Assembly: GCF_900155945.1 (NCBI RefSeq)
Contig: NZ_FTMN01000002.1
Location: 124,001-188,000, forward strand
DNA length: 64,000 nt
Source of the DNA: Marinobacterium stanieri
GTDB lineage: Bacteria > Pseudomonadota > Gammaproteobacteria > Pseudomonadales > Balneatricaceae
Direction of reading: 5' to 3'
The notes under the pieces were generated by a model. The model did not search any database and was not told the DNA's origin. It was given only the letters and a program-made list of their open reading frames with translations. A program made the translations under genes and the position numbers. Every line of letters begins with the position of its first letter. Positions within the stretch are counted from its first letter, which is position 1. Shown here in pieces: positions 42,073-54,014 of the stretch.

Positions 42073-42900
42073 GTGAATCCTTTCTATCGCCTTCGCTCAT
42101 TCTTTGCTCTGGCCACTCTAACCTGCGCTGCCGGCACCCTTGCCGCACAGGATCTCAATAATGACCGCCTTGAACGGATCAAGACTACAGGGGAACTGCG
42201 TGTCTGCATATGGCCGGAATATTTTTCCATCAGTGCCCGCCATCCCAAAACCGGTGAACTTGAAGGTATTGATATCGATCTGGCCCATGCCTTTGCCAGC
42301 GACCTCGACGTCTCCCTGACTTTTGTCGAAACTCACTTTGGCCGCTTTATCCAGGACCTTAAGGATGATCGTTGCGACCTGGCCATGTTCGGCGTTGCCA
42401 TCACCGACCAGCGCAAACAGCATATCGATTACAGCGAGCCCTACCTTGCCAGCCAGATCTATGCCGTCACCACCCGGACGCACGCCGCCATCAGTGAATG
42501 GCAGGACATCAACCAGCCCGGCGTTATTGTGAGCGTGCAGGAAGGCACCTATATGCAGGGATTCAAGCAACACAACCTGCCCGAAACCGACATGCTGGTC
42601 GTACGTAACCCGCGTGAGCGCGAACAGACCGTTATGTCAGGCCAGGCCGACCTGTTTTTGACTGACTACCCATACTCGCGCAAGGTTCTGCGCTTTTATG
42701 ACTGGGCCCGCGTTATCTCACCGACAGCAGACAGCACTGACCGCCCCTTCAAGTACGCCTATGCTATCGCACAAGAGCAACCTGCATGGCTGGCACGCAT
42801 CAATGAATTTGTTCGTCAGGTAAAAAATGATGGGCGACTAAACGCAGCCGCCAGGCGTTACGACCTGTTGCCGGCCGTCATGGGCGCTCAGGACAACTGA
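42073..42900 (+). CDS. Family-3 periplasmic solute-binding protein without a transporter
   Basis: 275 residues from a GTG preceded by GGGAGG. Signal peptide (about 1-24, ending AAGTLAAQ). Two-lobed family-3 fold seen in LRVCIWPEYFSIS, IDIDLAHAFASDLDV, DLAMFGVAITDQRKQHIDYSEPYLASQI and QADLFLTDYPYS. Proteins of this family bind amino acids or small organic ions for ABC uptake, or serve as sensors. No permease or ATPase gene lies nearby, but a GGDEF-EAL protein is divergent and a response regulator is convergent (13-base overlap of 3' ends), which suggests a signalling role. Ligand unknown. Confidence 0.85.
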   Translation: MNPFYRLRSFFALATLTCAAGTLAAQDLNNDRLERIKTTGELRVCIWPEYFSISARHPKTGELEGIDIDLAHAFASDLDVSLTFVETHFGRFIQDLKDDRCDLAMFGVAITDQRKQHIDYSEPYLASQIYAVTTRTHAAISEWQDINQPGVIVSVQEGTYMQGFKQHNLPETDMLVVRNPREREQTVMSGQADLFLTDYPYSRKVLRFYDWARVISPTADSTDRPFKYAYAIAQEQPAWLARINEFVRQVKNDGRLNAAARRYDLLPAVMGAQDN

Positions 42901-43541
42901 ACCAGGTCGTGCTCGATCGCATACCGCGTCAGCCCTGCCGCGGTATGTATATCCAGCTTGGATTTGATGTTTTGCCGGTGCGTTTCAACAGTTCTTACCG
43001 AAATCCCCAATACCTTGGCAATTTCCTTGTTGTTACGCCCCTCCGCCAACAGCTTTAACACCATCGACTCGCGCCGAGTCAGAGCAGAGGCTGCTGGCGA
43101 GTTGCTTTTGGGTGCCTGATCAAACTGACTGAACAGTGTCTGGGACGCACTTGAGCTGAAATAGGTGCCACCACGGTAGACGGTCTCAACCGCACTGACC
43201 ATCTCGGCTGCCGACACATCCTTGAGGATATAGCCTTTGGCGCCCGACTGAATCAGCTGCACCATATACTCGCGATTATCATGCATGCTCAGGATCAGAA
43301 CGCGTGTTTCCGGCATTTTTTCCTGCAACACCCGCGTGGCTTCGAGCCCATTCATAACCGGCATGGAAATATCCATCAAAATCACATCAGGCTGGAGCTG
43401 TTGAGCAACATCAACCGCCTCCTGGCCGTTACTGGCTCGCCCGACGACTTCGATTCCACCCTCATCTTCAAGGCGTGCCTGAATACCATCGATTACCAGC
43501 GGATGATCATCTACCAGCAATACGCGAATCAATGTGGTCAT
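42888..43541 (-). CDS. NarL/LuxR-type response regulator
   Basis: 217 residues. Receiver domain (about 5-120) with acidic pocket DD (11-12), phosphoacceptor D57 (LMDISMPVMNG) and conserved lysine in AKGYILKDV. LuxR-type HTH (about 150-210, LTRRESMVLKLLAEGRNNKEIAKVLGISVRTVETH). Its ATG overlaps the stop of the upstream kinase gene (ATGA), so that kinase is its partner. Downstream of dctPQM on the same strand; likely regulates the transporter. Also the only response regulator near the LuxP-linked kinase. Confidence 0.95.
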   Translation of the reverse strand: MTTLIRVLLVDDHPLVIDGIQARLEDEGGIEVVGRASNGQEAVDVAQQLQPDVILMDISMPVMNGLEATRVLQEKMPETRVLILSMHDNREYMVQLIQSGAKGYILKDVSAAEMVSAVETVYRGGTYFSSSASQTLFSQFDQAPKSNSPAASALTRRESMVLKLLAEGRNNKEIAKVLGISVRTVETHRQNIKSKLDIHTAAGLTRYAIEHDLVQLS

Positions 43542-44908
43542 GAATCTCTGTGTCCTTGTTGCAACGTCAAACCCACCAGCAGTATGGCACCCTGGCCCGG
43601 CTTTGACAGCAGTTTGAATTCTCCGCCCAGCAGCTCCACGCGCTCTCGCATGTTACGCAGGCCAATACCCTCAAAACGCTCGAGCACATCGGTATCGAAA
43701 CCACGCCCATTATCCTGCAAACGTAACCAAACCGCACCGCCCTGACGCCACAACCCCAAATTAAGCCAGCTGGCATCGGCATGCTTCTCAACGTTGGTCA
43801 GCCCTTCCTGCACCAGACGGTAGAGGGTAATTTCCACATCTTCAGGCAAGGGCGCATCCGGCAAGCGCATATCAACCTTGAGGCGAATCCCGGTGCGCTC
43901 GGTAAAGCGCTGCAACAAGCCATCCAAAGCCGCTTTCAGCCCCAGATCATCCAGCAGCGTTGGCCGCAGGTCATGGGAAATACGGCGCACTTCCTGAATC
44001 GCTTCATTGAGCACACCATAGCCCTGTTCCAGGTCTTCAAGGCCACTATCATCCTTGTTACGAAGCTTTCTCTGCGCCAGCTCGATACGGTACAGCACCG
44101 AAACCATCAGCTGGTTGATGCCATCGTGAAGCTCGCGGGAGAAGCGCCGGCGGTCAGCCACATTGGCCAGGATTGACCGGTGCGCCAGCAGGCGCAGACG
44201 GCTATCTGCCAGCCGGTTTTCATGCAGATTGATGGCGACACCCAAGAGCACTACCAGCAGCACTGCCACCAGCATAATCACCACGACCGTAAAGAAGGTG
44301 TTGCGAATGTTGCGATTCACCTGCTCGCGAATCTTGGCGACATCTCGGGTAATGTCATCCAGGTACAGGCCAGTACCGAGCATCCAGTTCCATCTCTCCA
44401 GCTTGACTGCATAGCTCAGCTTTTCTTCATAGTCCTGCTTCGAAGGCTTCTGCCACAAGTAACTGTGAAAGCCGCCACCCTGCTCTGCTCGGGCCAGCAG
44501 ATTGCGGATGAGGTAATCGCCACGTGCATCCTGGAGGTCATAGAGATTCCGTCCAATCAGATGAGGCAAGGTTGGATGCACCAGATTGGTACCATCCATT
44601 GTATAGACAAAGTAATAGCCGTCCTGCTCCTGACCAAAGGTCATATCCGTCAGGATACGTTTGACTTCGCGCTTGGCCTCCAGGTCATCCGGCTCTGCAT
44701 TCTCGACGATGTGCGCAATTGAGGTCATCGCCAGGCTGACATAGTTTTTCAGCTCGCGCTTTTTCGACGCCAACAGATTTTCTTCAAACAGCTGGATTTC
44801 ATCTTCGGATAACTGCCGTGCCTGACTCATGCCAATCCAGGCCACCGTTGAGGTAACCAGCAGCATGGGTATCAGCGACAACAGTAGTATTTTGACCTTG
44901 AGCGGCAT
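43538..44908 (-). CDS. Cache-domain HisKA_3 sensor histidine kinase
   Basis: 456 residues from the ATG at 44908; a TTG at 44932 would add eight. TM1 (about 6-25), a periplasmic single Cache domain (about 32-200) with YYFVYTMDGTNLVHP, LIGRNLYDLQDARGDYLI and the closing WNWMLGTGLYLDDI, the form found in carboxylate sensors. Then TM2 (about 204-228), the HisKA_3 dimerisation helix with the phosphohistidine in FSRELHDGINQ, and the ATPase with N-box GLTNVEKHA and DNGRGFD. Downstream of dctM and overlapping the regulator gene. Probably senses a carboxylic acid handled by the TRAP transporter (inference). Confidence 0.93.
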   Translation of the reverse strand: MPLKVKILLLSLIPMLLVTSTVAWIGMSQARQLSEDEIQLFEENLLASKKRELKNYVSLAMTSIAHIVENAEPDDLEAKREVKRILTDMTFGQEQDGYYFVYTMDGTNLVHPTLPHLIGRNLYDLQDARGDYLIRNLLARAEQGGGFHSYLWQKPSKQDYEEKLSYAVKLERWNWMLGTGLYLDDITRDVAKIREQVNRNIRNTFFTVVVIMLVAVLLVVLLGVAINLHENRLADSRLRLLAHRSILANVADRRRFSRELHDGINQLMVSVLYRIELAQRKLRNKDDSGLEDLEQGYGVLNEAIQEVRRISHDLRPTLLDDLGLKAALDGLLQRFTERTGIRLKVDMRLPDAPLPEDVEITLYRLVQEGLTNVEKHADASWLNLGLWRQGGAVWLRLQDNGRGFDTDVLERFEGIGLRNMRERVELLGGEFKLLSKPGQGAILLVGLTLQQGHRDS

Positions 44909-44977: not shown

Positions 44978-46267
<1,290 letters not shown>

Positions 46268-46281
46268 CGAATCACCCCTGA

Positions 46282-46818
46282 TCAGTGCTGCGTCGGAATG
46301 TAGTCATCACTCTTGTGATGGCCATTCAGGGTATTGATGGAGCGCAGCAACAGGCCCACACCACTGATAAACGTACAGAAGAACGCAAACGGAATGACCG
46401 CCTTGATTACCCACCGATACGGCAGGCCACCCGGGTCGCCCGAGCCTTCACCCAGCTCAAAGGATTCACGTGCGAAGTCGACGCCATACCATGCAACCAG
46501 AATGCAGAACGGAAACAGCAGGGTCAGTGTGCCAAAGAGGTCGATCCAGGCCTTTTTCTTCAGGCTCAGACCTTCGTAAATCAGGTCCACGCGTACATGC
46601 CCGCCCGCGCGCAGCGTAAAGGGCACACCCAGCATGAACATGGCAGCAAACAGGTGCCACTCAAGCTCCTGCATGCCGATGGAAACATTGTTAAACAAAT
46701 AGCGTGTAATGACGTCGTAGAAAACGTTGAACAACATCAACACGAACAGGACAGCCGAGATCTTGCCCAGCCAGTCGGAAAAGGCGTTGATGGTCTGCTC
46801 AAGGCGTAACAGAAACAT
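46282..46818 (-). CDS. dctQ: TRAP transporter small permease subunit
   Basis: 178 residues from the ATG at 46818 (MFLLRLEQTINAFSDWLGK), preceded by GAGGA; an upstream ATG would add an Arg/Pro-rich leader that is not conserved. Four membrane helices; typical features are VITRYLFNNVSIGMQELEWHLF and GGHVRVDLIYEGLS. Forms the membrane unit with DctM. Confidence 0.92.
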   Translation of the reverse strand: MFLLRLEQTINAFSDWLGKISAVLFVLMLFNVFYDVITRYLFNNVSIGMQELEWHLFAAMFMLGVPFTLRAGGHVRVDLIYEGLSLKKKAWIDLFGTLTLLFPFCILVAWYGVDFARESFELGEGSGDPGGLPYRWVIKAVIPFAFFCTFISGVGLLLRSINTLNGHHKSDDYIPTQH

Positions 46819-46908
46819 GTATCGTCCTCGCAATTGCGGACCCGGTGTCGCTTGGCAGCGCAAGCCGGCAGAAAGAGGGGCTGACAGGCGCCAGCCCCGC
46901 CACATCGA

Positions 46909-47982
46909 TTACTCGAAGCTGTTCAGGTAAGCGCGGTCAGCAATGTCGGTCCACTGACGGACAGTACCCATGTAGGCATCCTGAGATTCCAGGATCTCTT
47001 TCGCCAGTTCGTCGTTGGCAGCGTGCTCGGCCAGCAGTTCATCGTTAGCCTTGCGCAGCGCAGTGATAACCTCATCCGGGAAAGACTTCACTTCCACGTT
47101 CGGGAACTCGGCCTTCATGGTCGCCCAGTTCTCACCGGATTCATGGTGTGACTGGATGGTCATGTCGTAAGCGGCAACACGCATGGCAGTGGTCAGGATT
47201 TCCTGCAGGTCAGACGGCAGCTTTTCGAAAGTGCGCTTGTTGACCAGGAACTGCAGCTCGGTACCCGGCTCATGCCAACCGGTGTAGTAGTAAGGTGCAA
47301 TTTTGTGGAAGCCCATGCGCAGATCCATGGACGGGCCTACCCATTCCAGTGCATCGATGGTGCGACGCTCCAGGGAGGTGTACAGCTCACCAGGCGGGAT
47401 GTTGGTCGGGTTGGCGCCCACTTTTGCCAGGATCTCGCCGGCAAAGCCCGGGATACGCATCTTCAGACCCTGAAGGTCTTCCATGGAGTTGATCTCTTTC
47501 TGGAACCAGCCGCCCATCTGGACGCCGGTGTTACCACCCGGGAAAGACATCAGGTTGAACGGCTCATAGACCTTCTGCATGAGCTCCATGCCGCCGCCAT
47601 AGTAGAACCAGCCATACTGTTCAGTCGCTGTCATGCCGAACGGCATGGTGGTGAAGTACAGAGTGTTCGGTACCTTGCCCTTCCAGTAGTAGGACGCAGA
47701 GTGACCCATGTCGTACTGACCGGCGCGCACCATGTCAAACACACCAAACGCAGACTTGTGCTTGTTGGCGGTGTCGATACGAATCTCCAGACGTCCGTTA
47801 GACATCTTGTTGGCCAGGTCAGCCATACGGCGAGCAGGTTCACTGAACACACCAAAGTTGGTGGGCCAGGTTTCAGCCAGCTTGAGTTTGTAGACTTTTT
47901 CGGCAGCCTGAGCGGGGCTGATCAGCACAGCCGCGCAAGCGGCAGCCGCCATCACTTTCTTTGCAAAGGTAAGTTTGAACAT
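46909..47982 (-). CDS. dctP: TRAP transporter substrate-binding protein, TakP-like
   Basis: 357 residues from the ATG at 47982; earlier in-frame starts give a leader without signal-peptide character. Signal peptide 1-26 (ending SPAQAAEKVYK). Mature part has GGNTGVQMGGWFQKEINS, LKMRIPGFAGEIL (the ligand-binding arginine region of TRAP binding proteins), ALEWVGPSMDLRMGFHK and YYTGWHEPGT. This motif set is that of the TakP branch, which binds 2-oxoacids or lactate, not C4-dicarboxylates (family knowledge). First gene of dctPQM. Confidence 0.93.
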   Translation of the reverse strand: MFKLTFAKKVMAAAACAAVLISPAQAAEKVYKLKLAETWPTNFGVFSEPARRMADLANKMSNGRLEIRIDTANKHKSAFGVFDMVRAGQYDMGHSASYYWKGKVPNTLYFTTMPFGMTATEQYGWFYYGGGMELMQKVYEPFNLMSFPGGNTGVQMGGWFQKEINSMEDLQGLKMRIPGFAGEILAKVGANPTNIPPGELYTSLERRTIDALEWVGPSMDLRMGFHKIAPYYYTGWHEPGTELQFLVNKRTFEKLPSDLQEILTTAMRVAAYDMTIQSHHESGENWATMKAEFPNVEVKSFPDEVITALRKANDELLAEHAANDELAKEILESQDAYMGTVRQWTDIADRAYLNSFE

Positions 47983-48103
47983 TGTTTTTATCGATCCTCT
48001 GTTGTTTGTCGGCCGGCGCGCGAGGCGTGTTACCGGCACTGGACAGTATCGACATGAAGAACGGATAAAAACATTCGTGAAACTGCGCACATCTGTGCAT
48101 TTA

Positions 48104-48154
48104 CTACGCAGACCCATACGTAGCAACCGCAGAAAGCTAAGTAGTACTACGTAG
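48104..48154. promoter_or_regulatory. Cluster of TACG(T/C)AG heptamers upstream of dctP
   Basis: TACG(C/T)AG occurs at 48105-48111, 48117-48123 and 48148-48154. The last overlaps the palindrome GTAGTACTAC (48141-48150). They lie 120-170 bases upstream of the dctP start, between the LuxP-linked kinase gene and the TRAP operon, where a NarL-type regulator would be expected to bind. Assignment is inference. Confidence 0.4.
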
Positions 48155-48168
48155 AAATGACATACACA

Positions 48169-49902
48169 CTAGGCAGAGCAGATCTGCTCCGGCTCATCAC
48201 CAGCACTGGCATAGGCATATTGCGCCGGGATAAACAGTTCAACTCTGACACCGCCATCCAGCTTGAGCGTCAGCTCGGCCCCCAGGTATTCCGCTCGCTC
48301 GCGTATTGCCAGCAGACCAAAGCCGCCCTGCTCCTGCCCGGGGCGGCTCGCCAGGTTTTTAGCCCCGACGCCATCATCCGCAATCACCAGTCGCAAGCCT
48401 TCGGCTTCATCACGAAGCCGAATCAACACGTAGGTGCCCTTGGCGTGCTTGATGACATTGGAAAGCGCTTCCTGAGCAACGCGGTACAGGTGCGAGGTTA
48501 CTTCCGGCAATAACTGCCGTTCCTGGCGAATATCCATTTCCACCGCGTAGTCCATCTGCTCGAGTATGGGAATGGCCGGCAAGCCACTTAAACTGACCCC
48601 AAGACCAAAATCGGATAACTCGTAGGGCCTCAGTGTTCTGATACGGTGATAGACGTTGTCATAGATGGTGTTAACCAACTGCACCGCCTGATCGAGGTTT
48701 TGGCTTTGGCCCTTGAAATCACCCATTTCGTCACGCAGCAGCTGCAGATTCATCTTTACGGCCACCAGCATCTGGGCCATATCATCATGCAGCTCATTGG
48801 ACAGGCGCCTGCGTTCATTTTCCTGCGTCTGGATAAGGTGTTGAAGGATGCTACGCTTCTCGGTAATACTGGTAGACAGCTCCGCATTTACTTCTTCCAG
48901 TTCGTGTTCTCGCAGTTTGAGGCAGCGTACAATTTCTCCCACCTCGCGGCCAATCTGGTTGAACTCGCGTATCTGCATCTCTTTCCAGCTGGCATTACGG
49001 CTGCGATTCGCCAATCGGGTAAAGCCAATCAACTGTTGCAGCTGACGATCTACCGAACTGGATAGCCAGAATGCCACCAGCAGCGATACCAGCAACGCCA
49101 GCACCACACCATAGACCAGTGTATACCCCAGACCCTGACGCAAGGCGGCTTGCCCCTTGTCGTTGATGCTCAACGACAGATACAGGTCAGGGCCCAGCGT
49201 GGTCATGCCCCTTGATTCCACCTGGACAAAGCCACGGGGGCCAGCCTCATCATCCATCACCAGCTGTGTCAGACGCTGCTCTTTCAGGTTAAGCTGCAGC
49301 GCATGCAAAGGGTCGGCAGCCGACATGATCTGGTTCAACAAATGTGCATTTCCCGCCAGGCGCACCCCCATCAACAGCTGGCCTACCACCTTGCCACTGG
49401 TCGCCAGGTCCAGGGGAATGGAATATACCGCCAGGGTTTCGCCATCCACCGCCATGACCATCCAGCCCTGGTAGCTGGCACCTTCATGTTTTTCGATCAA
49501 GTGCTCGCACTCAAGGCCACTCAGCTCAGGGACATAGCTGCGTGACAGCTGGCAACGCCCCTGACCGGGAAATGAAATCACCGAGAAGTCGTAATGAATT
49601 TGCTCGTAGCCCTCTTCCCAACGCCGCAGATGACTGCGAAAGGCTTCCAGGTCGCCTCGATAAAGCGCACTGACCTGGGATGCATCCGCACTCATGGCAT
49701 GCGCCTCCGCCTCCACCCGCTTGAGATACTCCTGCAATCGCTCCTCATAACGCAGCGCCAGGCTGTTCGCGTAGCTTATCGACTGGCGGTCAATGATTTC
49801 ACTGGCCTGCATAAAGGTGGTAACGGAAAAAATGGCAAGCAGCGTAAAGGACAGGAACAACAGCAGCGTGAACGTGAGGGTGCGAAAGCGCGGATTTCTC
49901 AT
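48169..49902 (-). CDS. LuxQ-like input / HisKA_3 output hybrid-architecture sensor kinase
   Basis: 577 residues. TM1 (about 9-30), a periplasmic domain of about 228 residues (31-258), TM2 (259-281), a HAMP-like linker (SVDRQLQQLIGFTRLA), a coiled coil (about 325-360), then the HisKA_3 helix with H372 (SNELHDDMAQM) and the ATPase with N-box EALSNVIKHA (478-487), DDGVGA (509-514) and GGFGLLAIRERA. Periplasmic size, the strand YSIPLDLATSGKVVGQLLMG and the post-TM2 segment resemble LuxQ, but LuxQ has a classical HisKA core and a receiver, both absent here. The ATG overlaps the LuxP-like gene stop (TGATG), so the two are translationally coupled. No response regulator gene adjoins it. Confidence 0.88.
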   Translation of the reverse strand: MRNPRFRTLTFTLLLFLSFTLLAIFSVTTFMQASEIIDRQSISYANSLALRYEERLQEYLKRVEAEAHAMSADASQVSALYRGDLEAFRSHLRRWEEGYEQIHYDFSVISFPGQGRCQLSRSYVPELSGLECEHLIEKHEGASYQGWMVMAVDGETLAVYSIPLDLATSGKVVGQLLMGVRLAGNAHLLNQIMSAADPLHALQLNLKEQRLTQLVMDDEAGPRGFVQVESRGMTTLGPDLYLSLSINDKGQAALRQGLGYTLVYGVVLALLVSLLVAFWLSSSVDRQLQQLIGFTRLANRSRNASWKEMQIREFNQIGREVGEIVRCLKLREHELEEVNAELSTSITEKRSILQHLIQTQENERRRLSNELHDDMAQMLVAVKMNLQLLRDEMGDFKGQSQNLDQAVQLVNTIYDNVYHRIRTLRPYELSDFGLGVSLSGLPAIPILEQMDYAVEMDIRQERQLLPEVTSHLYRVAQEALSNVIKHAKGTYVLIRLRDEAEGLRLVIADDGVGAKNLASRPGQEQGGFGLLAIRERAEYLGAELTLKLDGGVRVELFIPAQYAYASAGDEPEQICSA

Positions 49903-51014
49903 CAGTCGCCAGCCTCCTGTGAGGCGCGGCGCGCCAGACGCTCATAGCGCTGGATGTTATGCTCACCCGTTTCCTCATCCAGCACCACAAAGTTACCGGA
50001 ATAGACCAGCGGTACCGGCTGCCCTGCCTGATCCCGCTTGATTGCTTCAGCCATGGCAATAGCGCTGTCATCATTCATGCGCATTAATACGACCTGCAGC
50101 TTATGCTGGCGCAGCTGCTCCAACTCTTCAGCACCACCACCCCAGCCATTGAGCACGACTTCACCCAATTGACCCTCCAGCTCCAGCGCATCCAGTGTCC
50201 CCAATGCCACATCCGTGGAGCAGGCATAGATATAGTCCAGCTCAGGGTGCTCGGACAGCAGACGCTGTGCCACATTTTTGCCACTTTCTCGACTGGAGTC
50301 TGTGTAATAACTGGCGACCAGCTCGTGCCTGTCCGATACCGACTGGATAAAGCCTGTGCCACGCATCTGGCTGATCATGCCCTTGCCGCGAAACAGCACC
50401 GCATACCGTGCCTGCTCCGGGAAACGCTGGGACAAATACTCGGCCAGCCTTCTGGCGCCCTCAACATGATCAAAACCGGAATAGAAGAAGGGTTGCTGGT
50501 CGCCCCAGGCTTTCAAGGGCGTGGTGATATTCTGCAGAATCAGTTTGGTGTTCTGGTTCAGCATCATGCGCTCAATAATCATTTTCTGGCGGACAGAGTC
50601 GAGCGTGTAAACCAGGTAGTCCGGCTGCCATTGCAGAAGTTCATGTATCTGAGCGACCTGCTCACCGAGTTCTGTACTGGGGGTGGTGTACCTCGCCCTC
50701 AGCTCATAGCGCATACCCAGCTGCTGCAGGCGCTTGCGAAAGGCTTTTTCATTATTGGTCCAGTAGCTGGACGACTGGTGCGAGGGATATACAAGGCCGA
50801 TACGGATGGGGCGCGACTGTTCGTATTCGACAGGTACCGGATTTGCCCGCACGGCTGCGGATAGTTGATCCAGCCAGAGCAACTGTTCCGGGTTGGCTTG
50901 ATAGAACTCCGGGTGCTGCCAGTAATCATTAAGACTGGCAGCTGACGCCAGACCTCCGGATGAAAGGCTCAGCAAGCACGCAAACACTGTAGACAGCAGT
51001 CGAGACATGTCCAT
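49902..51014 (-). CDS. LuxP-like periplasmic autoinducer-2 binding protein
   Basis: 370 residues with a signal peptide (about 1-26, ending GLASAAS). Strong resemblance to Vibrio LuxP through its length: N-terminal YWQHPEFYQANPEQ, NTKLILQNITTPL, YIYACSTDVALG, LNGWGGG and MRMNDDSAIAMAEAIK. The AI-2 contacts remembered for V. harveyi LuxP are all present: Q80, S82, W85, N162, R218, T267, D268, W291 and R312 (Vibrio 77, 79, 82, 159, 215, 266, 267, 289, 310). The arginine pair that holds borate is retained. Coupled to the kinase gene below, so it likely acts as ligand-loaded partner of that kinase in the periplasm. It could instead bind a related furanose; ligand identity is inference. Confidence 0.9.
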   Translation of the reverse strand: MDMSRLLSTVFACLLSLSSGGLASAASLNDYWQHPEFYQANPEQLLWLDQLSAAVRANPVPVEYEQSRPIRIGLVYPSHQSSSYWTNNEKAFRKRLQQLGMRYELRARYTTPSTELGEQVAQIHELLQWQPDYLVYTLDSVRQKMIIERMMLNQNTKLILQNITTPLKAWGDQQPFFYSGFDHVEGARRLAEYLSQRFPEQARYAVLFRGKGMISQMRGTGFIQSVSDRHELVASYYTDSSRESGKNVAQRLLSEHPELDYIYACSTDVALGTLDALELEGQLGEVVLNGWGGGAEELEQLRQHKLQVVLMRMNDDSAIAMAEAIKRDQAGQPVPLVYSGNFVVLDEETGEHNIQRYERLARRASQEAGD

Positions 51015-51054: not shown

Positions 51055-51807
51055 TCAGGAGCGCAACAAAAACACCAGCGTCATTACCAGACCCACCAGC
51101 ACCACAAAACGCTTGACCCACACAGCTGGCAGTATACGGGACAGATGCGCCCCCTGATATCCTCCCAGTGTAGCAGCCAACATCATTACCAGCGCTTCGG
51201 CCCAGAGTACTTTTCCGGCCACTGCAAAGGCCAGAACCGAGATCAGGGATATGATGAAGGATATCCAGTTCTTGAGTCCATTCATCAAAAGCATATTGGT
51301 CATGCCGGCTGCGGCGAACATGGCCAGCAACATGATGCCCAGGCCGCCATTGAAGTAGCCGCCGTACACAGCCACAACAAACAGACCCGGCAGCAAAGCC
51401 ACCGGTTGGTTACTGCGCCGAATCCGCGCCAGCAGAGTCTGGCCGAAAGCGAACATCAGTGTGGCCAGCAGCAGTAATACCGGCACCACCTGCGAGAAAA
51501 GCTCTGCCGGTGTAACCAGCAACAACGCACCGCCCAAGAGACCGCCGACCAGCCCTACCACAGACATCTGCAGGTGTTGGCGCCGGGTCAGCTGACTCAG
51601 CTCCTGTCGAAAGCCCAAAGCGCCACCCAGATAGCCCGGCAACACCGCGACCGCGCTGGTAGCATTAGCCATGATGGGCGGCACGCCGGCCCATACCAGT
51701 GCGGGAAAAGTCAGGAAGGAGCCGCCACCGGCAATCGAATTCAACACCCCTGCCAGATAGCCTGCCACAATCAGGACAATCCATTGCAGTATTTCCCAGT
51801 CCAACAT
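51055..51807 (-). CDS. TSUP family (TauE/SafE) membrane transporter
   Basis: 250 residues, about eight membrane helices in two repeats. The first contains LAGVLNSIAGGGSFLTFPAL, the hallmark of the family; the second contains YGGYFNGGLGIMLLAMFAAAG. Family members move sulfonates, sulfite or organic anions. Nine bases after uvrB and 40 before the LuxP-like gene, all on the same strand, so they may share a transcript. Substrate unknown. Confidence 0.92.
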   Translation of the reverse strand: MLDWEILQWIVLIVAGYLAGVLNSIAGGGSFLTFPALVWAGVPPIMANATSAVAVLPGYLGGALGFRQELSQLTRRQHLQMSVVGLVGGLLGGALLLVTPAELFSQVVPVLLLLATLMFAFGQTLLARIRRSNQPVALLPGLFVVAVYGGYFNGGLGIMLLAMFAAAGMTNMLLMNGLKNWISFIISLISVLAFAVAGKVLWAEALVMMLAATLGGYQGAHLSRILPAVWVKRFVVLVGLVMTLVFLLRS

Positions 51808-51816
51808 ACGGACTCC

Positions 51817-53829
51817 TTATCCGCTGTGCTTCAGGCGCTCAAGCTCATCCCTGATTGCCGCTGCTTTTTCAAACTCCAGATTACGGGCCGCCTCGTACAT
51901 TTCGTCCTCAAGGCGCACCATCATTTTCGCCTGTTCTGCCGGAGACAGTTTGGCCACATCCACATTGTATTCACCCTCAGCCTCAGCAGCCTTGCGCACG
52001 GAGCCCTTGCCTCGTTTGCCCGGAATCTGCTGTGCCCCTTCCATGATATCCGCCACCGATTTGCGAATACCCTTGGGTGTAATGCCATGCTCCTTATTGA
52101 AGGCGAGCTGTTTTTCACGACGCCGTTCGGTCTCATCCATGGCACGCTGCATGGATCCCGTAATCCGGTCAGCATACAGAATTGCGCGGCCATTCACGTT
52201 ACGCGCAGCACGTCCAATGGTCTGAATCATGGAGGTATCGGAGCGAAGGAAGCCTTCCTTATCCGCATCAAGAATGGCTACCAGCGCCACCTCAGGCATG
52301 TCGATACCTTCACGCAGCAGGTTAATCCCTACCAGGACATCAAACTCACCAATGCGCAGGTCGCGGATAATCTCAACACGCTCAACCGTATCGATATCCG
52401 AATGCAGGTATCGCACACGCACATTGTGTTCGGCCAGGTACTCGGTCAGATCTTCCGCCATACGCTTGGTCAGAACGGTAACGACAATACGCTCCTTGCG
52501 AGCGACCACCTTGTTGATCTCGCTTAGCAGATCGTCCACCTGAGTACTTGCGGGTCGGATTTCCACCACCGGGTCCACAAGGCCGGTTGGACGCACAACC
52601 TGTTCGACAATTTGCTGAGCATTGGCGGCTTCATACTTGCTTGGCGTGGCCGAGACAAAGATCATCTGCGGCGAGATACGTTCCCACTCCTCAAACTTCA
52701 TCGGCCGGTTATCCAACGCGGACGGCAGGCGGAAGCCATATTCAACCAGCGTTTCCTTGCGTGAGCGGTCACCACGGTACATGGCACCAATTTGCGGCAC
52801 GGTGACGTGAGATTCATCGATCACCAGCAAGGCATTATCCGGAAGATAGTCAAACAGTGTGGGGGGAGCCTGGCCGGGATCGCGCCCTGAGAGGTAGCGG
52901 GAGTAGTTCTCGATACCGGAGCAATACCCCAGCTCCAGAATCATTTCGATGTCGTACAGTGTTCGCTGCTCAAGGCGCTGTGCCTCAACCAGCTTGTTGT
53001 TGTCGCGCAGCTGTTTAAGCCGCTCCTGCAGTTCAACCTTTATATGTTCGGTCGCTTCCAGCAGGGTCTCACGGGGCGTGACATAGTGCGTTTTCGGGTA
53101 GATCGTTGCCCGCGGCACCTTACGCAGCACCTCGCCGGTGAGCGGGTCAAACCAGGCAATCTGATCAACCTCATCACCAAACAGCTCGATGCGAATCGCA
53201 TCCTTGTCGGATTCAGCCGGGTACACATCGATCACATCGCCACGTACACGATAGGTACCACGGTGAAACTCGATATCATTACGGGTGTACTGAAGCTCCG
53301 CCAGGCGCCGCAGCAGATCACGTTGATCAATCACATCTCCACGATCCAGGTGCAGCATCATCGACAGATAGGACTTGGGATCACCCAGGCCGTAGATGGC
53401 CGATACCGTAGCTACGATAATGGCATCGTCACGCTCGAGCAGTGCCTTGGTGGCGGATAGCCGCATCTGCTCGATGTGGTCATTGATGGACGCATCTTTT
53501 TCGATGAAGGTATCAGACGCTGGCACATAGGCTTCCGGCTGATAGTAGTCGTAGTAGGAAACAAAGTACTCGACGGCATTATCGGGGAAAAACTCCTTGA
53601 ACTCCCCGTACAACTGGGCTGCCAGGGTCTTGTTGTGGGCCATGATGATGGTTGGACGCTGGACAGCAGCAACCACGTTCGCCACCGTAAACGTCTTGCC
53701 CGACCCGGTTACACCCAACAGCGTCTGGGCCGCCAGACCGGACTCCAGTCCGTCCACCAGCCCCTCAATTGCCTTCGGCTGATCACCGGCCGGCTCGAAT
53801 GCCGATTGAACCCTGAACCTTTGCTTCAT
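51817..53829 (-). CDS. uvrB: Excinuclease ABC subunit B
   Basis: 670 residues from the ATG at 53829, preceded by GGAGG at good spacing; a start 27 bases upstream is less likely. Helicase-like DNA damage verification subunit. Walker A in [13 protein letters not shown]; the beta-hairpin region [20 protein letters not shown]; motif II in VIDESHVT; motif VI in [13 protein letters not shown]-terminal UVR domain ([20 protein letters not shown]) that binds UvrC. No convincing LexA box was seen upstream. Confidence 0.98.
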
Positions 53830-54014
53830 CTCTAACCTCCGACAACGAACCGGCAAGTATACGCGCTAACCCGCGAAGGGTTAAACACTCGCCTGAAGCC
53901 CCTAGAGTTAAGGGTTTTTTACATACAGGCGTTCAGCAATGCGTACTAATGCTGTATGCTCATCTGGCTATGCATTGAAGGATACCTTGCACCGAATTTA
54001 GAGAGGACCAAGGC

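Follow-up and report, generated by a model that had tools for sequence, protein, structure and literature searches.

A 64,000-nucleotide stretch of the Marinobacterium stanieri genome (contig NZ_FTMN01000002.1, positions 124,001 to 188,000; hereafter the window) carries a luxP gene, encoding a predicted periplasmic binding protein for autoinducer-2 (AI-2), and an overlapping gene for a sensor kinase with a HisKA_3 output. The pair probably constitutes a periplasmic AI-2 receptor of the LuxP/LuxQ type, in which the transmembrane partner has a HisKA_3 kinase as its output and would signal to a NarL-family regulator. Six features read from the sequence carry this assignment: a LuxP with its ligand pocket, a LuxQ-type sensor domain, a HisKA_3 output with a DxxxQ motif, the absence of a receiver domain, a luxS gene in the same genome and no second LuxQ-type sensor found there.

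LuxP and its predicted AI-2 pocket

The luxP gene (49902..51014, minus strand) encodes 370 amino acids with an apparent signal peptide and was identified by phmmer and by its pocket residues. Against PDB sequences, the top phmmer matches were the V. harveyi LuxP entries 4yp9, 1zhh and 1jx6 (2.7e-96 to 4.7e-96), and the next matches other than LuxP were sugar-binding proteins at 4.4e-12 or weaker. Both the similarity to Vibrio LuxP (E of about 1e-96) and the position in the LuxP tree identify the protein as a LuxP orthologue.

Pocket residues were compared using V. campbellii LuxP as the alignment reference, whose sequence agrees in every letter with Q77, S79, W82, N159, R215, T266, D267, W289 and R310, which we take to be the AI-2 and borate contacts of the V. 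harveyi LuxP structure. The window protein aligned to 9/9 of these contacts with Q80, S82, W85, N162, R218, T267, D268, W291 and R312, exactly the positions at which a first-pass annotation of the sequence had claimed that every contact, both arginines included, was kept. In an alignment of 55 sensor-partnered LuxPs, conservation was at least 95% in every one of the nine pocket columns, a level reached by 48 of the 340 columns in total (hypergeometric 1.1e-8, a value to be taken as a guide since the 55 rows are related). The same annotation had named a phylogenetic position outside LuxP, with non-equivalent pocket residues, as evidence that would speak against it; the protein was placed inside the LuxP tree and its pocket residues were equivalent. 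By sequence, the 370-residue protein is a LuxP with an intact pocket.

Domain architecture of the kinase

The kinase gene (48169..49902, minus strand; 577 amino acids) overlaps luxP by one base, and the junction of the two genes reads GACTGATGAG, with the overlap in TGATG; the lengths of both open reading frames and the overlap were exactly as first annotated. Transmembrane helices were predicted by hydropathy at residues 9-27 and 262-280, enclosing a periplasmic sensor domain (49117..49821, minus strand; residues 28-262). Pfam detected HisKA_3 at residues 363-428 and HATPase_c at residues 469-560 (48223..48498, minus strand), both above the cut-off, and no Response_reg match in the kinase, as the earlier proposal of a HisKA_3 output without a receiver had it. 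The H-box ERRRLSNELHDDMAQ (48772..48816, minus strand; residues 363-377) includes the predicted phospho-acceptor His372 and a phosphatase-type DxxxQ motif. In HisKA_3 kinases the DxxxQ motif is linked to phosphatase activity, and ELHD or DLHD followed by [DE]xxQ was retained in 27/27 HisKA_3 partners of LuxP.

The catalytic part scored 118.9 bits with the NCBIfam model of MctS, 116.5 with UhpB, 70.4 with NarQ and 69.8 with NarX. The description 'NarX-type' given at first pass holds for the domain type, but the closest catalytic matches are MctS and UhpB and not NarX. The kinase was also considered as a LuxQ. The NCBIfam model LuxQ_Vibrio matched it with 39.5 bits (E 1.6e-10, cut-off 1200), which was taken as a lead only. 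Since the defining output of LuxQ, a hybrid of HisKA and receiver, was looked for and HisKA_3 without Response_reg was found instead, the kinase is not a LuxQ.

The periplasmic domain and its relation to LuxQ

Profile-profile comparison assigns the periplasmic half of the kinase to the LuxQ type, though the Pfam model misses it. Using hhalign, a profile built from seven sensor domains of the window genus matched a set of 34 LuxQ-type domains with a probability of 98.3 (E 2.4e-14, 208 columns), whereas the negative controls, the sensor of the nearby MctS kinase and reversed sequences, reached 0.3 and 0.2. Against smaller sets the genus profile reached 97.0 (five Pfam-recognised HisKA_3 partners), 95.5 (GGDEF-EAL proteins), 59.0 (two receiverless HisKA kinases) and 27.0 (two non-Vibrio hybrid kinases). 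Two sister HisKA_3 clades matched the full LuxQ-type set at 98.8 and 97.9, and the three clades pooled matched Vibrio LuxQ at 93.9. Distances among LuxPs and among their sensor domains were strongly correlated (Mantel r 0.92 over 55 pairs, 0/2000 permutations as high), a value to which shared genome descent contributes.

Several results weigh against the LuxQ-type assignment. When the target was limited to the two LuxQ domains of Vibrio, the genus profile reached 51.4 (E 1.5e-4), and the two sister clades taken singly scored 14.3 and 7.5. The Pfam LuxQ-periplasm model (PF09308) had no match in the window kinase or elsewhere in the 8 genomes of its genus, and it missed five of the ten scanned HisKA_3 partners, the other five (L046, L048, L070, L080 and L086) being matched. 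Sensor identity to four hybrid LuxQ proteins averages about 14%. An AlphaFold2 model of the sensor domain, made from a three-row alignment, was poor (predicted local distance difference test score 42) and was left unused, giving no structural support. The LuxQ-like periplasmic half proposed at first pass is upheld by profile-profile comparison (98.3 vs controls of 0.2-0.3) and not by the Pfam model.

AI-2 synthase and sensor content of the genome

The window is part of a 4.68 Mb assembly of 24 contigs with a completeness of 98.67%. The luxS gene, whose presence had been put forward as a check of the AI-2 reading, was found on contig C16 (E 1.9e-56), and LuxP is single-copy in the genome at 1e-15. 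A 40-row profile of LuxQ-type sensors recovered the window kinase, which is one of its own rows and so matches by construction, at 1.1e-64, and found no second LuxQ-type sensor in the window genome, the next match having an E value of 0.155.

Outputs joined to LuxP across the family

In the family of the window genome, LuxP-type genes were found at 58 places in 48 of 116 genomes, and all 58 neighbourhoods were examined, with L002, L003 and the window representing G023, G025 and G000; L106, a duplicate of G024, was left out of all sets. A scan of genome contigs with a single protein recovered only two relatives. Directly after luxP stood HisKA_3 kinases at 27 places (10 scanned with Pfam, the others assigned via phmmer/BLAST clustering), PAS-GGDEF-EAL proteins of about 900-1050 amino acids at 23 (6 scanned with Pfam), hybrid HisKA kinases with two receivers at two (L045, L051), HisKA kinases without a receiver at two (L047, L050) and, at L087, a 315-residue protein with the LuxQ-periplasm domain only. 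The remaining three are L064, at a contig edge, G042, where LuxP lies apart from a LuxQ-type protein of the same contig, and L088, a distant type with 6/9 pocket residues. Pfam detected LuxQ-periplasm among the scanned members of every output class. The connection of LuxP to HisKA_3 kinases proposed at first pass is supported, but it is no single chimera: a survey for LuxP genes followed by such kinases finds it at 27 of 58 LuxP-type places, and several outputs other than HisKA_3 occur as well.

Two pairs, one of them with a HisKA_3 kinase, were present in nine genomes. The second pair has a GGDEF-EAL protein in G035, G036, G037, G073, G104, G106 and G107, and a hybrid kinase in G018 and G103, where one LuxP precedes a hybrid LuxQ and its paralogue precedes a HisKA_3 kinase. 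On balance we favour the view that the LuxP/LuxQ-periplasm pair is, in this family, an exchangeable AI-2 input module placed on at least four outputs (HisKA_3, PAS-GGDEF-EAL, receiverless HisKA and hybrid), with nine genomes reading AI-2 via two branches, seven of them via one of a transcription type and one of a cyclic di-GMP (c-di-GMP) type.

LuxP followed by a protein with LuxQ-periplasm, PAS, GGDEF and EAL domains was found at L049, L055, L065, L072, L074 and L081, all scanned with Pfam, and the order LuxP then GGDEF-EAL protein at 17 further loci; such partners suggest that AI-2 may control c-di-GMP via a LuxP-type receptor. At L047:8536-13750, LuxP, a receiverless LuxQ-type HisKA kinase, a lone receiver and a receiver-GGDEF-EAL protein stand in a row, an array that suggests a c-di-GMP output via a separate regulator. 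In genus g12, LuxQ-periplasm proteins adjoin a TctC-type binding protein and not LuxP in three of five loci (L100:5621-9260, L103:6641-10436, L105:517-4168), and a PfkB kinase gene takes the place of that binding protein in the other two (L101, L104). The two scanned proteins of this genus, those of L100 and L103, are GGDEF-EAL proteins.

The luxS gene was detected in 69 of the 116 family genomes, namely in 39/48 with LuxP vs 30/68 without it, a comparison that ignores kinship. Genomes with a HisKA_3 pair had it in 25 of 27 cases, the misses being G055 (89% complete) and G107 (86% complete). No luxS match was found in any of the seven LuxP-bearing genomes of genus g10, in which six LuxPs stand before GGDEF-EAL proteins and one is cut by a contig end; judging from gene content, these genomes may listen for AI-2 without producing it.

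Evolution of the pair

A LuxP tree of 68 rows was calculated with a quick method without bootstraps, with the proteins L096-L098 of family f27 and the near-duplicate L035 left out. The window LuxP was placed in a starred clade of 21 HisKA_3-linked LuxPs, and the GGDEF-EAL-linked LuxPs (n=23) in a separate starred clade of 27 rows. Two Vibrio LuxPs were sister to the HisKA_3 clade, with a support of 80 in this quick tree. The seven output labels need 11 changes on the LuxP tree, compared to a mean of 34.4 after shuffling, and the HisKA_3 label alone needs 3, two of which are forced by starred branches. The kinase-domain tree is compatible with one origin of the HisKA_3 partners (support 79, long branches). 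The four LuxPs of hybrid and HisKA_3 kinases in G018 and G103 formed one starred group.

LuxP outside the family

Of 390 genomes sampled from the order, 32 matched LuxP at 1e-30: 11 belong to the family, a further 4 scored above 270 bits and 17 came from family f27 (25-31% identity). A sample of 369 genomes from the class yielded 4 matches, including the window genome. Five non-family LuxPs exceeded 230 bits, and weaker matches outside the family were used as the outgroup. Three of the five precede receiverless PAS-HATPase_c kinases, one a LuxQ-periplasm-PAS protein and one a GGDEF-EAL protein; a HisKA_3 kinase follows none of them (0/5). The three kinases (L089, L090 and L092) matched HATPase_c and PAS, with HisKA below the cut-off in L089 and L090 and unmatched in L092, and with Pfam LuxQ-periplasm below the cut-off in one and unmatched in two. 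This domain was likewise unmatched by Pfam in the non-family GGDEF-EAL partner.

Two further kinds of locus hold more distant relatives. On a Roseicitreum plasmid (L109:1454-8116), a LuxP relative of about 31% identity lies among genes for an ATP-binding cassette (ABC) transporter, an RbsD-like protein, a monooxygenase and a class II aldolase, together with a sugar-type regulator, a locus somewhat like the Lsr operon. In family f27 (L096, L097:8594-11176 and L098), a LuxP-like protein of 25-29% identity is followed by an overlapping open reading frame of 853-860 amino acids, and the one scanned, that of L097, had no Pfam match.

Proposed mechanism and gene neighbourhood

From the features above we infer a ligand, a complex, a direction of switching and a type of target. 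AI-2, produced by LuxS of the same cell and by neighbouring cells, would bind LuxP, probably in its borated form because both arginines are kept. LuxP would rest on the periplasmic, LuxQ-type part of the kinase; a bound ligand would alter this sensor domain and shift the balance between autophosphorylation (at His372) and phosphatase activity (via DxxxQ). Phosphate would then reach a DNA-binding regulator of the NarL family in a single transfer, bypassing the receiver-LuxU-LuxO relay of Vibrio.

Upstream of luxP, at a gap of 40 bp, lies a gene for a TauE/SafE family transporter assigned by Pfam (51055..51807, minus strand), which is perhaps in the same transcription unit as luxP and takes the same upstream position in the 7 genus loci compared. 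Within 51055-53856 of the window, uvrB and the TauE/SafE gene precede luxP on one strand with gaps of 9 and 40 bp, an order kept in the seven genus loci. The neighbouring unit downstream consists of the dctPQM genes of a tripartite ATP-independent periplasmic (TRAP) transporter (44978..47982, minus strand), followed by genes for an MctS-like HisKA_3 kinase and an MctR-like NarL-family regulator (42888..44908, minus strand), the latter being the nearest regulator and a candidate but not obligate target. The pair stands upstream of dctPQM-mctS-mctR in 7/8 genomes of the genus (the window, L002, L003, L034, L035, L036 and L038); G024 retains the pair, but the dctPQM-mctSR operon is not beside it. 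The gap between the kinase gene and dctP (47982-48169) holds TACGTAG/CTGCGTAG-like elements, and a CTGCGTA element is present in the six relatives compared. These elements might be a site at which a regulator of the TRAP operon acts; the motif was not enriched in the window, with 4 matches vs 3.95 expected.

Candidate regulators and alternative readings

No regulator adjoins the pair, except for MctR in the window genus, and this and the lack of an MctR match in 7 of the 27 pair genomes speak against the proposed mechanism. It is conceivable, but in our estimate unlikely, that the pair serves MctR, with the LuxP kinase and MctS both phosphorylating the regulator of the downstream TRAP transporter and AI-2 controlling organic acid uptake. 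MctR is the nearest NarL-type regulator, lies on the same strand and shares the synteny of the pair within the genus, MctR matches occur in 20 of the 27 pair genomes, and the elements before dctP could be its site. However, MctR already has an adjacent kinase in MctS, is not beside luxP in other genera and occurs in many genomes that lack the pair (65/116 genomes overall), and the motif before dctP is not enriched. With at most 26 candidates scored per genome, seven of the 27 pair genomes had no MctR match at 1e-45: G024 (99% complete), G036, G037, G056 and G103 (97-100%), G035 (71%) and G055 (89%). MctR is ruled out as an obligate target because pair genomes such as G024, five of them 97-100% complete, are without such a match.

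Outside the window genus, no conserved NarL-type neighbour of the HisKA_3 pair was found in the fetched stretches (mostly 7-9 kb per side), and the only phmmer match to MctR near a pair was weak (31 bits) and 9.7 kb away, at L044. HisKA_3 kinases number 5 in the window genome, and 3 adjoin a GerE regulator; of its 21 GerE matches, 10 have a receiver by phmmer. Of the receiver-bearing regulators, those closely related to proteins of both G024 and G037 are the ErdR-like L111 and L112 (NCBIfam ErdR scores of 181 and 290.6, below the cut-off of 390), the GacA-like L117 (81% and 51%) and the FixJ-like L110, which adjoins its own kinase. The two ErdR-like and the one GacA-like regulator are conserved candidate targets, which narrows the list without an assignment.

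A second alternative concerns the ligand, as LuxP belongs to the ribose-binding fold family and might here bind another small sugar-like compound, a nutrient sensor with a retained fold, as its relatives in ABC operons such as L109 probably do. A single pocket residue does vary in three LuxPs (L045, L050 and L078). The window LuxP, by contrast, holds all nine contacts in columns that are among the most conserved, unlike the eight distant LuxP-like proteins, which have lost 2 to 7 (7/9 kept in L109, 6/9 in L088, L094, L095 and L099, 2-3/9 in L096-L098), and luxS is more frequent in LuxP genomes, subject to the kinship caveat above; we regard another ligand as improbable. That the real partner is a receiver-bearing LuxQ elsewhere and the adjacent kinase unrelated, an objection anticipated at first pass and reminiscent of the separated proteins of G042, is very hard to sustain, as no other LuxQ-type sensor turned up in the window genome, the two genes overlap by one base and LuxP and sensor domains co-diverge.

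Comparison with known systems

Up to now LuxPQ has been regarded as in essence a Vibrio system. A survey of 2008 describes it as restricted to Vibrionales (Rezzonico and Duffy 2008, PMC2561040), a domain census of 2016 assigns LuxQ-periplasm to 115 proteins, 112 of them kinases and one a c-di-GMP protein (PMC4822843), and the Lux family is handled as hybrid kinases in PMC8895600. LuxP beyond Vibrio is not new as such, since homologues are given in PMC2561040, and in a survey of 2025, which put the number of LuxP proteins at 267, the three tested all bound AI-2 (PMC12268683). A description of a LuxP-HisKA_3 or LuxP-GGDEF-EAL pair was not found in searches of the open-access literature of PubMed Central. 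The novelty appears to lie in what the LuxP/LuxQ-type pair is joined to, namely outputs that lack the LuxU-LuxO relay. Reconstructing a one-step two-component system for AI-2 would be easy, and G018 and G103, with their paralogue pairs, offer a natural comparison of one input domain driving different outputs.

With kinases of the NarX, UhpB and MctS type, the window kinase shares a HisKA_3 dimerisation and phosphotransfer domain with HD[DE]xxQ and HATPase_c, its best NCBIfam catalytic matches being MctS and UhpB, but a LuxQ-type periplasmic domain and a separate binding protein replace the nitrate or Cache sensor. Receptors of the CahR type (dCache_1) and AsrK likewise join AI-2 input to kinase or c-di-GMP outputs (PMC12268683, PMC11796354), and the 2025 survey gives HisKA_3 as one of the outputs predicted for the CahR type, an unrelated receptor class (PMC12268683). 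In these receptors, however, the dCache_1 domain of the membrane protein itself binds AI-2, without a LuxP-type protein, and AsrK, a dCache_1 AI-2 kinase, prefers borate-depleted conditions (PMC11796354).

The LuxP homologues noted in Oceanospirillales come from this group of bacteria and also have an operon partner unlike LuxQ (PMC2561040). Unlike the pair described here, the Neptuniibacter and Marinomonas genes reported there adjoin PAS-domain 'transcriptional regulators', and no luxS was reported in the order. The word 'GGDEF' occurs 0 times in the text of that paper, and its relevant parts name neither a HisKA_3 nor a c-di-GMP output; its PAS proteins may belong to the GGDEF-EAL class found here. 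With the LuxP-LuxQ-LuxU-LuxO circuit of Vibrio, finally, the window shares a LuxP orthologue with the same contacts, a LuxQ-type periplasmic domain, the order of luxP and kinase gene and a luxS gene in the genome. It differs in having a HisKA_3 kinase where Vibrio has a HisKA hybrid with a receiver, and consequently has no LuxQ receiver to feed LuxU and LuxO.

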